The notes under the pieces were generated by a model. The model worked only from the letters and a program-made list of their open reading frames with translations. It was not told where the DNA came from and made no database searches. Made by a program: the position numbers and the translations under genes. This document shows, one piece after another, positions 37,095-41,532 of a stretch of DNA of 45,207 nt. Source of the DNA: Gemmatimonadaceae bacterium. GTDB taxonomy: Bacteria > Gemmatimonadota > Gemmatimonadetes > Gemmatimonadales > Gemmatimonadaceae. The DNA lies in NCBI GenBank assembly GCA_017991005.1, contig JAGNMU010000001.1, forward strand, positions 1-45,207, given 5' to 3'. The first letter of the stretch is position 1, and each line of letters begins with the position of its first letter.

Positions 37095-38042
37095 TTATCG
37101 CGTCGGCGCGGCGCCGGACGCCTCGCCGATCACGGGTCCACGGGGCATCGCGGGACGCGGCGCCGTCGCCAGCGCAATCGCCATGTCCGCCATGTGCTCG
37201 ACCACCCATTCGAAGTAGCTGGGTGTGAGCGAATAGATGTCCATGTCGGGTGCCGGATTCATGAAGTCGATGGCGTAGGGAATGCCATCGCGGACGGCGA
37301 ACTCCACGGTGTTCATGTCGTAGCCGAGCTCGCGGCAGAGCGTGCGTGCATCGGCCACACAGCGGTCCTCGATATCCTTGGGCAGGTACCCAGGGTCCGG
37401 GATGTACTTCCGCTGACGTGGATCGTACGGCATGGGCAGCACGTGCTCGCGGCCCAGCACCATGCATCGCACGTAGAAGTCCCACTTGATGAACTCCTGC
37501 ACCACCATCGTCAGCAAGCCGCTGGTGTTGTAGTGGTGGAGGAGTTCTTCCATGGAGTGACAGACGTACACGTCGCGCCAGCCGCCGCCATGGGCGTCCT
37601 TGAGCACGCAGGGAAAGCCGATATGCTCGGCCACGGCCCGCCAGCTCAGTGGGTAGGCCAGGTTCCGCAGCGACTCCGAGTGCGAGATACCCGGGATGTA
37701 GTCCTTGTTGGGCAGGACCATCGTCTTCGGGTGCGCGACGCCCATCTGGGTGGCCATGGTGGCGTCGTAGAACTTGTCATCGGCCGACCACATGAACGGA
37801 TTGTTCACCACCGTCACGCCCATGCGGGTCGCATGCTTGAGGAAGGTTCGGTAGAACCCGACCTCGTGCGAGATGCGATCAATGATGAGGGTGTACGGGA
37901 CAGGCTGCGCCATGCGGGTGGCGTCGAGCTTGATGTAGTCGGCGGAGACGCCAGACTGGCGTTTGGCGACGGCTTCGAGAAAGGCCGGGGGAAAGGACCA
38001 CTCCCGCCCGACCAGCAATCCGATCCGGGGTTCGACTGACAC
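37095..38042 (-). CDS. RimK-like ATP-grasp ligase
   Basis: This 315-residue protein starts at a GTG at 38042, with GGAG about 10 nt upstream. Standard ATP-grasp order is present: PCVLKDAHGGGWRDV (Lys148, glycine loop 152-154), VVQEFIKWDFYVRC (Glu183), and the metal site NTVEFAVRDGIPYAIDFMNPAPD (Glu247, Asp259, Asn262). It is the first gene of a four-gene run of two ATP-grasp ligases, a class I hydrolase and a GCS2 ligase. The region upstream contains DnaA boxes. It probably adds an amino acid or amine to a carboxylate acceptor, which cannot be named from sequence. Confidence 0.88.
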   Translation of the reverse strand: MSVEPRIGLLVGREWSFPPAFLEAVAKRQSGVSADYIKLDATRMAQPVPYTLIIDRISHEVGFYRTFLKHATRMGVTVVNNPFMWSADDKFYDATMATQMGVAHPKTMVLPNKDYIPGISHSESLRNLAYPLSWRAVAEHIGFPCVLKDAHGGGWRDVYVCHSMEELLHHYNTSGLLTMVVQEFIKWDFYVRCMVLGREHVLPMPYDPRQRKYIPDPGYLPKDIEDRCVADARTLCRELGYDMNTVEFAVRDGIPYAIDFMNPAPDMDIYSLTPSYFEWVVEHMADMAIALATAPRPAMPRGPVIGEASGAAPTR

Positions 38043-38479
38043 GTTGGGAATTCTCCAGAGTGAGACGCACGGAATGCCGCAGAATGGTGAATTCGGGCAG
38101 ACCTCGCCATAGGGCGTACGAATTCCAGATCATGGAAATGCCATGCTGCTGGTACGGAGTCGAACCAATAACCGCGTGTTAGCAATCAAGAAAACAGCAT
38201 ATTTGTGACTTGACCGTGTGTGGATAAACGACCGTACCCGGCCCCAAAACACAAGCCATGGATGAGGGCATTTGTCCACATCGGCCAAGGGCGCACACGA
38301 CGACACGAAAGGCACTTACCCACTTATCCACACAGTTACAAACACCTATCCACAACCATATCAACAACTTAGGGCACATGTATCGTATTGCGTGCGCGGC
38401 TCAATCGTCATAACATCACCGCCCGCCGACAATACAAATCGGCGCATCGTCACGTTCCTTCTCCGTCTTGGAATCGACC
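38043..38479. other. AT-rich intergenic region with DnaA boxes, candidate oriC or DnaA-controlled promoter
   Basis: This 437-nt gap has perfect DnaA boxes at 38218-38226 (minus strand) and 38323-38331 (plus strand). Single-mismatch boxes lie at 38271-38279 (TTGTCCACA) and 38345-38353 (CTATCCACA), with a weaker one at 38315-38323. Start-to-start spacing of the four main boxes is 53, 52 and 22 nt, close to whole helical turns. The 38160-38220 segment is AT-rich in a GC-rich genome and could be an unwinding element. All genes to the left as far as 27632 are transcribed away from it. dnaA, dnaN or other replication genes are not visible nearby. Confidence 0.5.
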
Positions 38480-38884
38480 ATGCAAGTCGTCGCCTGCAAT
38501 GCGCCTCTCGGATCGCTCGAGCCTGCTCCCCTCACGTCCCTGCCGATGGACGACGAAATGGGGAAAATGCAGCTGCGCGCGTTCTGGGGAGAGGACGATG
38601 CGTACTTCGTGCAAGCGTGCGCGGGGAGCGACGCAGGGGCCGATGTCCAGTGGTACCGCATCGACGCGGGCGAAGTCCTGCCGACTGGCACGATGGAAGA
38701 GCGCATGGCGATCGCGCGCCTGCTGTCGGACATCACCCCGATCGGTGGCGGCCGGGTGGCCTTTCCGATCGGCAGCACGGGTCGCCGATTCTATCGGGTC
38801 TGGCGGACCGGATCGAGCGACAAGGGAAGTCGGACTAAAATCCTGGCAGTTCGAGCTGCGCGGTCACGCCGCCTGCCAGCGTAA
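38480..38884 (+). CDS. hypothetical protein
   Basis: This 134-residue protein starts at the ATG at 38480, with GGA about 8 nt upstream. I do not recognise the family. The sequence is acidic in its first half (PMDDEMGKMQLRAFWGEDDAYFVQACAG), then has a short domain with WYRIDAGEVLPTG, MAIARLLSDITPIGGGRVAFPI and FYRVWRTG. The C-terminal 20 residues are basic and overlap the end of the gene on the opposite strand by 50 nt, so the true end of coding content is uncertain. It has no signal peptide or membrane segment. It stands directly beside the DnaA-box region. Confidence 0.5.
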   Translation: MQVVACNAPLGSLEPAPLTSLPMDDEMGKMQLRAFWGEDDAYFVQACAGSDAGADVQWYRIDAGEVLPTGTMEERMAIARLLSDITPIGGGRVAFPIGSTGRRFYRVWRTGSSDKGSRTKILAVRAARSRRLPA

Positions 38885-39776
38885 CGCCGGCAGCCTGCAA
38901 CCACGCCAGCAACAGATCTTGTCCGTGATCCCCGGCCAGGGCGGAGCGCGCCGCGCTCAGATGGAGCTTGAACTCCGCGGAGACATCCGGCAGCGTGCGA
39001 CGGAGCACGGCCACGGTGAGGAGTTCGGTCGCGTCTGCCAGATGGCGAATGGCGAACTCGTTCATGCGAGCGCGCAGGGCACTCGCGTTGAGCACCTTGG
39101 CCTCTCCCGGGACTTCGTGATCGGCGCGTCGTTCGCGGAAGACCGCGAGCCGCGTGCGGGTCGCGGAAATGGTGGGCAGTTCATCGCCGGCATGTTCGGG
39201 GATGACCGCCACTGGAGCCCCCAGCAGTCCGAGCCACGCCATCCACAGGGTACCGCGCGCGTAGGGTTCCCACGGCTCGTGCTCGAGCTGGTGGGAGACT
39301 TGTCGGATGGTGCTGTCGACACCGGAACGCACCTCCCACCAAGTCAGGAACCCATCGGTCTGACGGGAGACCAAGGCCAGCGCACCGAGCCGCAGCGCCC
39401 ATTTGACGGCCAGTTCGCCGTCGTCGAGGGGTGGACGCAGGGCGGCACTGCAGCGGAAGGCTCTGGCGGCTCCCAGCGCGAGCACGGCCTGCGCCAGATC
39501 ACGCACGGCGTTGGGAACGGGCTGAAGTGCCGCCTCGAGATGACTGAGTGCGGCGAGTTCGTAGGCGGTGCCCAAGAGTGCCAGCCCGTCGGCAATGGGC
39601 TCGCCCAGTCCGTCTCCGGCGACAAGCGACGCCGCCTCCGCTCGTTCGAGCAAAAGCGCGCGTCGTTCCGCGGGAATGGCAGCGACGGCCCAATGCTCGT
39701 CGAGCGTCGCTCTGGCCAACTTGGCCAGATCACGCGCCGCGAGATCGCGCTCTGCTGCGGGGCTGAGCACCTGCAT
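38835..39776 (-). CDS. hypothetical protein
   Basis: This 313-residue protein is started at the ATG at 39776, since the region upstream of it looks non-coding. I do not recognise the family. It is mostly alpha-helical and Ala/Leu-rich, with repeated short helices (DLAARDLAKLARATL, AYELAALSHLEAALQ, DLAQAVLALGAARAFRC), a Trp-rich middle (LTWWEVRSG, PYARGTLWMAWLGLLG), and a hydrophilic C-terminal helix region. No signal peptide and no catalytic motif is evident. It converges with, and overlaps by 50 nt, the gene at 38480. Transcription may be controlled by the palindromes near 39913-39952. Confidence 0.6.
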   Translation of the reverse strand: MQVLSPAAERDLAARDLAKLARATLDEHWAVAAIPAERRALLLERAEAASLVAGDGLGEPIADGLALLGTAYELAALSHLEAALQPVPNAVRDLAQAVLALGAARAFRCSAALRPPLDDGELAVKWALRLGALALVSRQTDGFLTWWEVRSGVDSTIRQVSHQLEHEPWEPYARGTLWMAWLGLLGAPVAVIPEHAGDELPTISATRTRLAVFRERRADHEVPGEAKVLNASALRARMNEFAIRHLADATELLTVAVLRRTLPDVSAEFKLHLSAARSALAGDHGQDLLLAWLQAAGVTLAGGVTAQLELPGF

Positions 39777-40077
39777 ACCGCCGCCTCCAAGGGAGGGGTG
39801 GATCTGGATCCCTGTCGCTTCGACGGACGCCGGGGGTGGCGACCGATCGACCACGCCCTCGCCGTGCCTCGGCGACGATCGCATCGGCGATCACCGCGAA
39901 GCCAGCTCGGGTACTGCCGAGCTCGGTAGTTCTGTTCGGCGCCAGGCGCCGATCGCGCAAGAGAAGCTACGGCAAGCGGTTACAACCGCCTCTGCAACAA
40001 CGTTCCGATACTGTCGCATTTATGTAACAGACCACGTCCTGTCAAGGTCTGTTGAACGATTTTCCGGAGAAGCACCG
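39777..40077. promoter_or_regulatory. divergent promoter region with two palindromes
   Basis: This 301-nt gap lies between divergent hypothetical genes. ACTGCCGAGCTCGGTAGT at 39913-39930 is an 18-nt palindrome with one mismatched pair. TCGGCGCCAGGCGCCGA at 39936-39952 is a perfect 8-1-8 dyad 5 nt downstream. They look like two operator sites for a regulator. The 40010-40060 part is AT-richer and may hold the promoter for the gene starting at 40078. Confidence 0.4.
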
Positions 40078-40723: not shown

Positions 40724-41532
40724 TCGCGCCTCGGCGCCTCTGCGCCTCGGCGACACAGCAGTTCGTTTGCCTCGAGCACCTCAGCGCACCCCAGGCTCTC
40801 GCCGTTCGTGAGCGTGTGAGGGATGGGAGCCAAACATCTGAACGCGAAGCGCGCGGAGGCACACGAGGAACGGCGAACAGCTTTACCGCAGAGTCGCAGG
40901 GGCGCGGAGGCCCGGGACGGACAGGTGGTTGCGGTTTCCCAAAGTCCTTTCTTGGAATGGCTCCGCTCCTGCCGAAAGTACGACTCTGCGCCTCTGCGCC
41001 TCTGCGACAAAGCAGTTCCCTGTGCCTCGAGCACCTGGCTCTCGCCTGTTTACGAGAGTGTGACGGATGAGAGCCAAACGTCTGAACGCGACGCGCGCGG
41101 AGGCACACGAGGAACGGCGAACAGCTTTACCGCAGAGGCGCAGCGGCGCGGAGGCTCGGGACGGACAGGTGGTTGCCGTTTCCCAACGTTCCTATTTGGA
41201 ATGGCTCCGCTCCTGCCGAAAGCACGACTCTGCGACTCGGCGCCTCTGCGACAAAGCCGTTCGTTTGCCTCGAGCACCTCAGCGCACCTCAGGCTCTCGC
41301 CCGTTCGTGAGAATGTGAGGGATGAGAGCCAAACGTCTGAACGCGAAGCGCACGGAGGCACACGAGGAACGGCGAACAGCTTTACCGCAGAGGCGTAGGG
41401 GCGCGGACGACCGGGACGGACAGGTGGTTGCCGTTTCCCAACGTTCCTATTTGGAATGGCTCCGCACTTGCCGAAAGCACGCCTCTGCGCCTCTGCGATT
41501 CCAAAAAACAAGAATCGCGGAGGCGCGGAGGC
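40724..41532. repeat. tandem array of GC-rich repeats with unit about 250 bp
   Basis: Unit starts, taken at the shared word GAGCCAAAC, fall at 40827, 41071 and 41326, giving periods of 244 and 255 nt. A partial fourth copy (3' half only) lies at 40724-40826, and the last copy is truncated near 41500. Each unit contains GGCACACGAGGAACGGCGAA, a CCGCAGAGGCGC-type block, and later a CTCTGCGCCTCTGCG block. The two blocks are complementary, so each unit can fold as a long hairpin. The copies carry small differences. Frames inside it encode Arg/Glu/Ala-rich pseudo-proteins that I reject. Confidence 0.8.
41481..41532. terminator. 21-bp hairpin at the end of the repeat array
   Basis: Arms 41481-41501 and 41512-41532 pair with two mismatches around a 10-nt A-rich loop. 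It lies 23 nt beyond the yfhO-type stop codon and may end its transcript on the minus strand. Confidence 0.55.

Follow-up and report, generated by a model that had tools for sequence, protein, structure and literature searches.

A conserved, precisely spaced array of predicted DnaA boxes upstream of a small gene in Gemmatimonas, distant from the probable replication origin

Four sequences resembling DnaA boxes lie close together in an intergenic region of a Gemmatimonadaceae genome, raising the question of whether such a cluster marks a replication origin, acts on DnaA itself, or regulates a neighboring promoter. The window, i.e., the whole stretch of 45,207 nucleotides that was analyzed, is contig C265 of a draft genome of 4.63 Mb (633 contigs, 79% complete). 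A preliminary description had reported two perfect and two one-mismatch boxes, and all four were found in place (Table 1), spanning 136 bp with start-to-start distances of 53, 52, and 22. When up to one mismatch was allowed, the window contained six matches to the box compared with an expectation of 2.7, and four of the six belong to the array. The perfect sequence TTATCCACA occurs five times in the 4.63 Mb of the genome, including twice in the array, and in a simulation, two or more of five randomly placed sites came within 105 bp of each other with a probability of ~5e-4. The boxes of the array are real and highly nonrandom. The AT-rich segment mentioned in the same description is also evident, with a G+C content of 0.50 over positions 38160 to 38400 versus 0.65 for the whole window, and the 60-bp segments with the lowest G+C content in the entire 45 kb are those of the intergenic region of the array. 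Equally, the genes to the left are directed away from the array over more than 10 kb, and dnaA is absent from the window, being located on another contig (G000:C296).

Table 1. Coordinates of the DnaA boxes, other conserved elements, and adjacent genes in the window
Feature	Position	Strand	Remarks
Left-edge elements CGTGTTNGCAAACAAG and TTTGTGA	38175..38208		TTTGTGA at 38202, invariant; from the alignment
DnaA box 1 (predicted), TTATCCACA	38219..38227	-	Inverted relative to the other three; TGTGGA invariant in 24 genomes; mean, 1.82 bits/column
DnaA box 2 (predicted), TTGTCCACA	38272..38280	+	Third base free among relatives; 1.80 bits/column
ACTTA block, putative binding site	38314..38318	+	Directly 5' of box 3; from the footprint alignment
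DnaA box 3 (predicted), TTATCCACA	38324..38332	+	1.79 bits/column
DnaA box 4 (predicted, weak), CTATCCACA	38346..38354	+	TATC-N-ACA in most relatives; 1.64 bits/column
IHF-like site, TATCAACAACTTA	38359..38371	+	Fits the published IHF consensus WATCAANNNNTTR
Small-gene promoter (predicted)	38388..38416	+	-35 TTGCGT, 17-nt spacer, -10 TAACAT; from conservation
Small gene, 134 aa, family specific	38480..38884	+	Basic conserved C terminus RSRRLPA
Divergent gene, RimK-like ATP-grasp ligase	37095..38042	-	Heads the leftward run; Ku in its place in g31
Convergent gene	38835..39884	-	Retained alongside the array and small gene; its g31 homologue is distant (27% identity)

With positions 37900 to 38500 as the BLAST query against 40 relatives, the array region was matched in all of the 24 remaining genomes of the genus, and the 16 genomes from other families yielded no match. 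The 53/52/22 pattern was repeatedly recovered when the corresponding loci of the relatives were scanned with no spacing requirement. In an oriented alignment of 24 sequences, from which one truncated contig was left out, box 3 is located at +105 from box 1 and box 4 at +127; box 3 is shifted by one base in G007 and G019, as is box 4 in these two genomes and in G023. Across these sequences, the boxes hold 1.6 to 1.8 bits per column, whereas the spacers hold 0.4 to 0.6 and are thus near random; the 24 congeneric genomes are not independent, but the divergence of the spacers still makes the conservation of the boxes stand out. The third base of the 9-mer varies freely among the relatives, which gives the pattern TTNTCCACA, and DnaA boxes tolerate a free base at this position. 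The spacing has been kept across species, and helical phasing is here inseparable from constant spacing as such. The array was also identified in two sister genera, with identical spacing in g32 and in a modified version in g31. In 288 genomes of the order, the core pattern of the array was found no more than once per genome (33 matches, several of which are single-mismatch ones in other families or genera), and the idea of second copies of the array was therefore dropped. Among the matches listed for six scanned genomes, three of them closed, an exact TTNTCCACA triple is confined to the array. The array of G020 has two exact TTNTCCACA boxes and one with one mismatch, and G059 and G081 each have one further close box pair outside the array among the matches listed.

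Downstream of the boxes, a TTGCG[CT]-N17-TANNNT element (equivalently, TTG-N20-TANNNT) was found in 24 of 24 genomes and is predicted to be the promoter of the small gene, so that the conserved boxes adjoin a conserved promoter. The predicted start site is at ~38423, and the centers of the boxes are ~73, 95, 147, and 200 bp upstream of it. This promoter is far from the Escherichia coli consensus, and a mechanical promoter scan made no call here. The small gene is conserved in the genus and in g31 and g32 but was found in only 14 of 151 genomes of the order, and its product shows 48% to 58% identity across nine aligned relatives, with 41 invariant residues. No Pfam or NCBIfam family matched the small protein, and its structure model, which is of low confidence (mean pLDDT, 57), had no PDB match with an E value of ≤0.001.

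The preliminary description had considered a DnaA-controlled divergent promoter for the ligase cassette on the left, in which the RimK-like gene is followed by genes for a circularly permuted ATP-grasp protein, a C26 peptidase, and a GCS2 ligase. In g31, the array, the small gene, and the convergent gene stay together, and the divergent gene is that of Ku. Because the array and the small gene are retained there while the ligase is replaced, the array probably serves the small gene and not the ligase cassette. The idea of DnaA control is thus partly supported, for the rightward small gene rather than the leftward ligase, and the promoter of the cassette was discarded as the main target. Farther to the right, the window also contains three direct copies of an ~209-bp sequence (positions 40810 to 41517), spaced by 244 and 255 and 85% to 91% identical to the first.

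Additional conserved blocks are found in and near the array. The core TCAA-N4-TTAG (positions 38361 to 38372), present in all 24 genomes of the genus, is identical to that of the IHF consensus WATCAANNNNTTR given in PMC4585315; the full consensus is present in 6 of the 24, including the window. A weak DnaA-like 9-mer (ATATCAACA) at 38358 overlaps this site. As the core is lost in g31, an IHF-type binder is a tentative assignment. The left edge of the array holds CGTGTTNGCAAACAAG, the reverse complement of which resembles a motif upstream of dnaA. The sequence CTTGYTTGCNAACACG occurs in exact form upstream of dnaA in five genomes (G020, G015, G004, G001, and G059), and 21 of 24 genomes have it, with 0 to 3 mismatches, at the array's left edge (positions 38175 to 38190 in the window). 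Another element upstream of dnaA, ACAACGASTTG, resembles the block GACAACGACTTA of the g31 array (L161 and L162), and the two may be sites of a shared regulator. No Rfam match indicative of a structured RNA was found at the array up to an E value of 1.

The reading that we favor, with moderate confidence, is that DnaA binds the cluster as a regulatory array upstream of the small gene (38480 to 38884). This reading builds on features taken directly from the sequences, namely the boxes and the distances between them, the conservation of the promoter, the array's linkage with the small gene, and, in the closed relatives, a location away from the GC skew minimum. DnaA would occupy box 1 and boxes 2 to 4 on roughly one face of the helix, as the box spacings are near whole helical turns, and an IHF-like HU-family protein could introduce a bend at the TCAA-N4-TTAG block. 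The DnaA complex, centered about 70 to 200 bp upstream of ~38423, would then set the output of the TTGCGT-N17-TAACAT promoter. This output would follow the amount or the nucleotide state of DnaA, and the family-specific small protein would thereby be coupled to the replication cycle. The sign of the regulation, activation, is a guess from the upstream position, and we likewise infer what the IHF-like site and the small protein do within this reading. Against it, four boxes with a long conserved geometry are more than a simple DnaA-regulated promoter would require, the promoter is weak when judged against the consensus, and the small protein has no recognized function.

DnaA acts as a transcription regulator in Caulobacter (PMC3193534), and the array resembles DnaA-regulated promoters, such as those of Caulobacter (PMC3193534) and that of dnaA autoregulation, in that the boxes adjoin a sigma70-type promoter; the same box is also found within the dnaA promoter of this genus. 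However, the array differs from such promoters in having four boxes at fixed long spacings, all of them upstream of the -35 element, as well as an IHF-like block, and in being tied to a lineage-specific gene. The literature that was searched contained no study of DnaA control in Gemmatimonas.

The combination of boxes and an IHF-like block at a kept spacing is also the plan of datA and DARS2 (PMC4585315), and a locus of this type would work on DnaA in trans, titrating it, stimulating its ATP hydrolysis, or exchanging its nucleotide, with the nearby promoter being secondary. The E. coli control loci keep their box spacing and relative map position (PMC4585315, PMC5010248). Like datA, DARS1, and DARS2, the array is a single-copy cluster of at least three boxes with kept spacing and a putative IHF-like site, and it lies at a similar relative distance from the origin: in three closed genomes, the array and dnaA are separated by 0.35, 0.39, and 0.36 of the chromosome. 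It is, moreover, the sole dedicated DnaA cluster seen outside oriC among the matches listed, and the one HU-family protein found in the genome is nearer to the IHF profile (91 bits) than to the HU profile (60 bits), though below the IHF cut-offs. Nevertheless, we consider a DARS- or datA-like locus rather unlikely. The array is always upstream of the small gene and its invariant promoter and follows this gene between genera; the constant map position is weak evidence and may merely reflect synteny, as gene order is shared; and the IHF-like core is lost in g31. Exact boxes are near chance genome-wide, giving no sign of general titration: for most of six genomes, counts of TTNTCCACA were about those of a control with the pattern reversed, and a moderate surplus was seen in G059 (67 versus 49) and G015 (38 versus 27). 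None of the six genomes had a large genome-wide excess of dispersed boxes for titration, such as that known from E. coli (PMC12371093). The array shows no sign of homology to datA or DARS; it is tied to one promoter and gene, and its DnaA-control activity is putative. A stand-alone Gemmatimonadaceae DnaA-control locus, analogous but not homologous to datA and DARS, that would both tune DnaA and drive a small protein feeding back on initiation seems to us distinctly unlikely.

Both the favored reading and a control locus involve DnaA as the binding protein. The four dnaA upstream regions that were aligned contain the same 9-mer (TTGACTTATCCACA..TACCTT), located at the -35 element or between it and a TACCTT-like -10 element, and at least one TTNTCCACA was found 57 to 100 bp upstream of dnaA in 11 of 11 genomes checked. 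Since the same 9-mer is in the dnaA promoter, the motif appears to be used at a DnaA-type target in this genus. The DnaA protein of the genome has an intact helix-turn-helix domain, and we infer that DnaA binds the array. A rival view, in which the TTNTCCACA-like motif belongs to a transcription factor other than DnaA that governs the divergent region, draws on the invariant blocks TTTGTGA, ACTTA, and CGTGTTNGCAAACAAG, which point to additional binders, and DnaA binding at the boxes is itself a prediction; however, the 9-mer is identical to a DnaA box and recurs upstream of dnaA, making such a factor very unlikely. The genome also encodes another DnaA-related protein, on G000:C484 (L010; L002:61-2412, minus strand), in which the Bac_DnaA ATPase domain is present twice and the DnaA helix-turn-helix had no match; its gene adjoins a small GTPase gene. 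In G020, G059, and G081, similar double Bac_DnaA matches are found at distances of 62 to 108 kb from the array.

The first suggestion made for the cluster, that it is the replication origin, did not withstand a check of GC skew, the criterion proposed in the preliminary description itself. The skew was sampled in 20-kb stretches and read from closed chromosomes of G020 (eighty stretches) and G081 (coarser); G059 was left out, as its sampling was too coarse. In G020 (4,636,964 bp), dnaA is at the start (~0) and the array is at ~1.6304 to 1.6309 Mb, and the skew is largely positive between 0 and ~1.9 Mb and largely negative beyond, so that the sampled minimum falls at dnaA and the maximum close to 1.9 Mb. 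In G081 (5.18 Mb), the minimum likewise coincides with dnaA, at 3.69 Mb, and the array lies at 1.82 Mb. The array is thus 1.6 to 1.9 Mb away from the skew minimum in these two relatives, from which the same layout is expected for the window's own genome, whose assembly is in 633 pieces. Nor is the array linked to dnaA and dnaN, with dnaA being on G000:C296 in the window's genome and at 0 versus 1.63 Mb in G020. Such linkage is usual for oriC, though not obligatory.

The dnaA-dnaN intergenic region (G000:C296:38373-38602; L009:10373-10602) is a candidate origin in the window's genome. In seven genomes, this region contains several degenerate CCACA sites, followed by CTGCTNCTACTACTG and then a T-rich tract, and a trio-like run was identified as CAGTAGCAGTAGCAG in the window's genome and as TAGTAGCAGCAG in G020 (complementary strand). 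In the basal unwinding system, DnaA-trios are within 16 bp of a DnaA box (PMC8287927). On account of the weak boxes, the trio-like repeat, and the AT-rich tract in the seven genomes, the dnaA-dnaN region is the better candidate and is probably the oriC of the genus. The array shares DnaA boxes and a low G+C content with an oriC that has the basal unwinding system (PMC8287927) but differs from it in having no DnaA-trio run (no run of three on either strand between 38160 and 38430), skew minimum, or dnaA. Its clustered boxes, relatively low G+C content, and sole exact-box triple in the genome among the matches listed would suit an origin; the trio run and a more AT-rich stretch are, however, found in the dnaA-dnaN region. 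Given the skew and this better candidate, we reject the array as oriC, and its being the chromosomal origin is extremely improbable. A plasmid origin was also dismissed, as no related plasmid sequence was found.

Gemmatimonas and some of its close relatives appear to carry one dedicated, precisely spaced set of DnaA sites far from the origin. This set probably acts as a DnaA-controlled promoter, and it may serve to regulate DnaA itself. In addition, a probable oriC at dnaA-dnaN is supplied for the genus. A single, deeply conserved off-origin array marks the small gene as a prime candidate DnaA target in this lineage, in which DnaA regulation outside oriC becomes a testable question.
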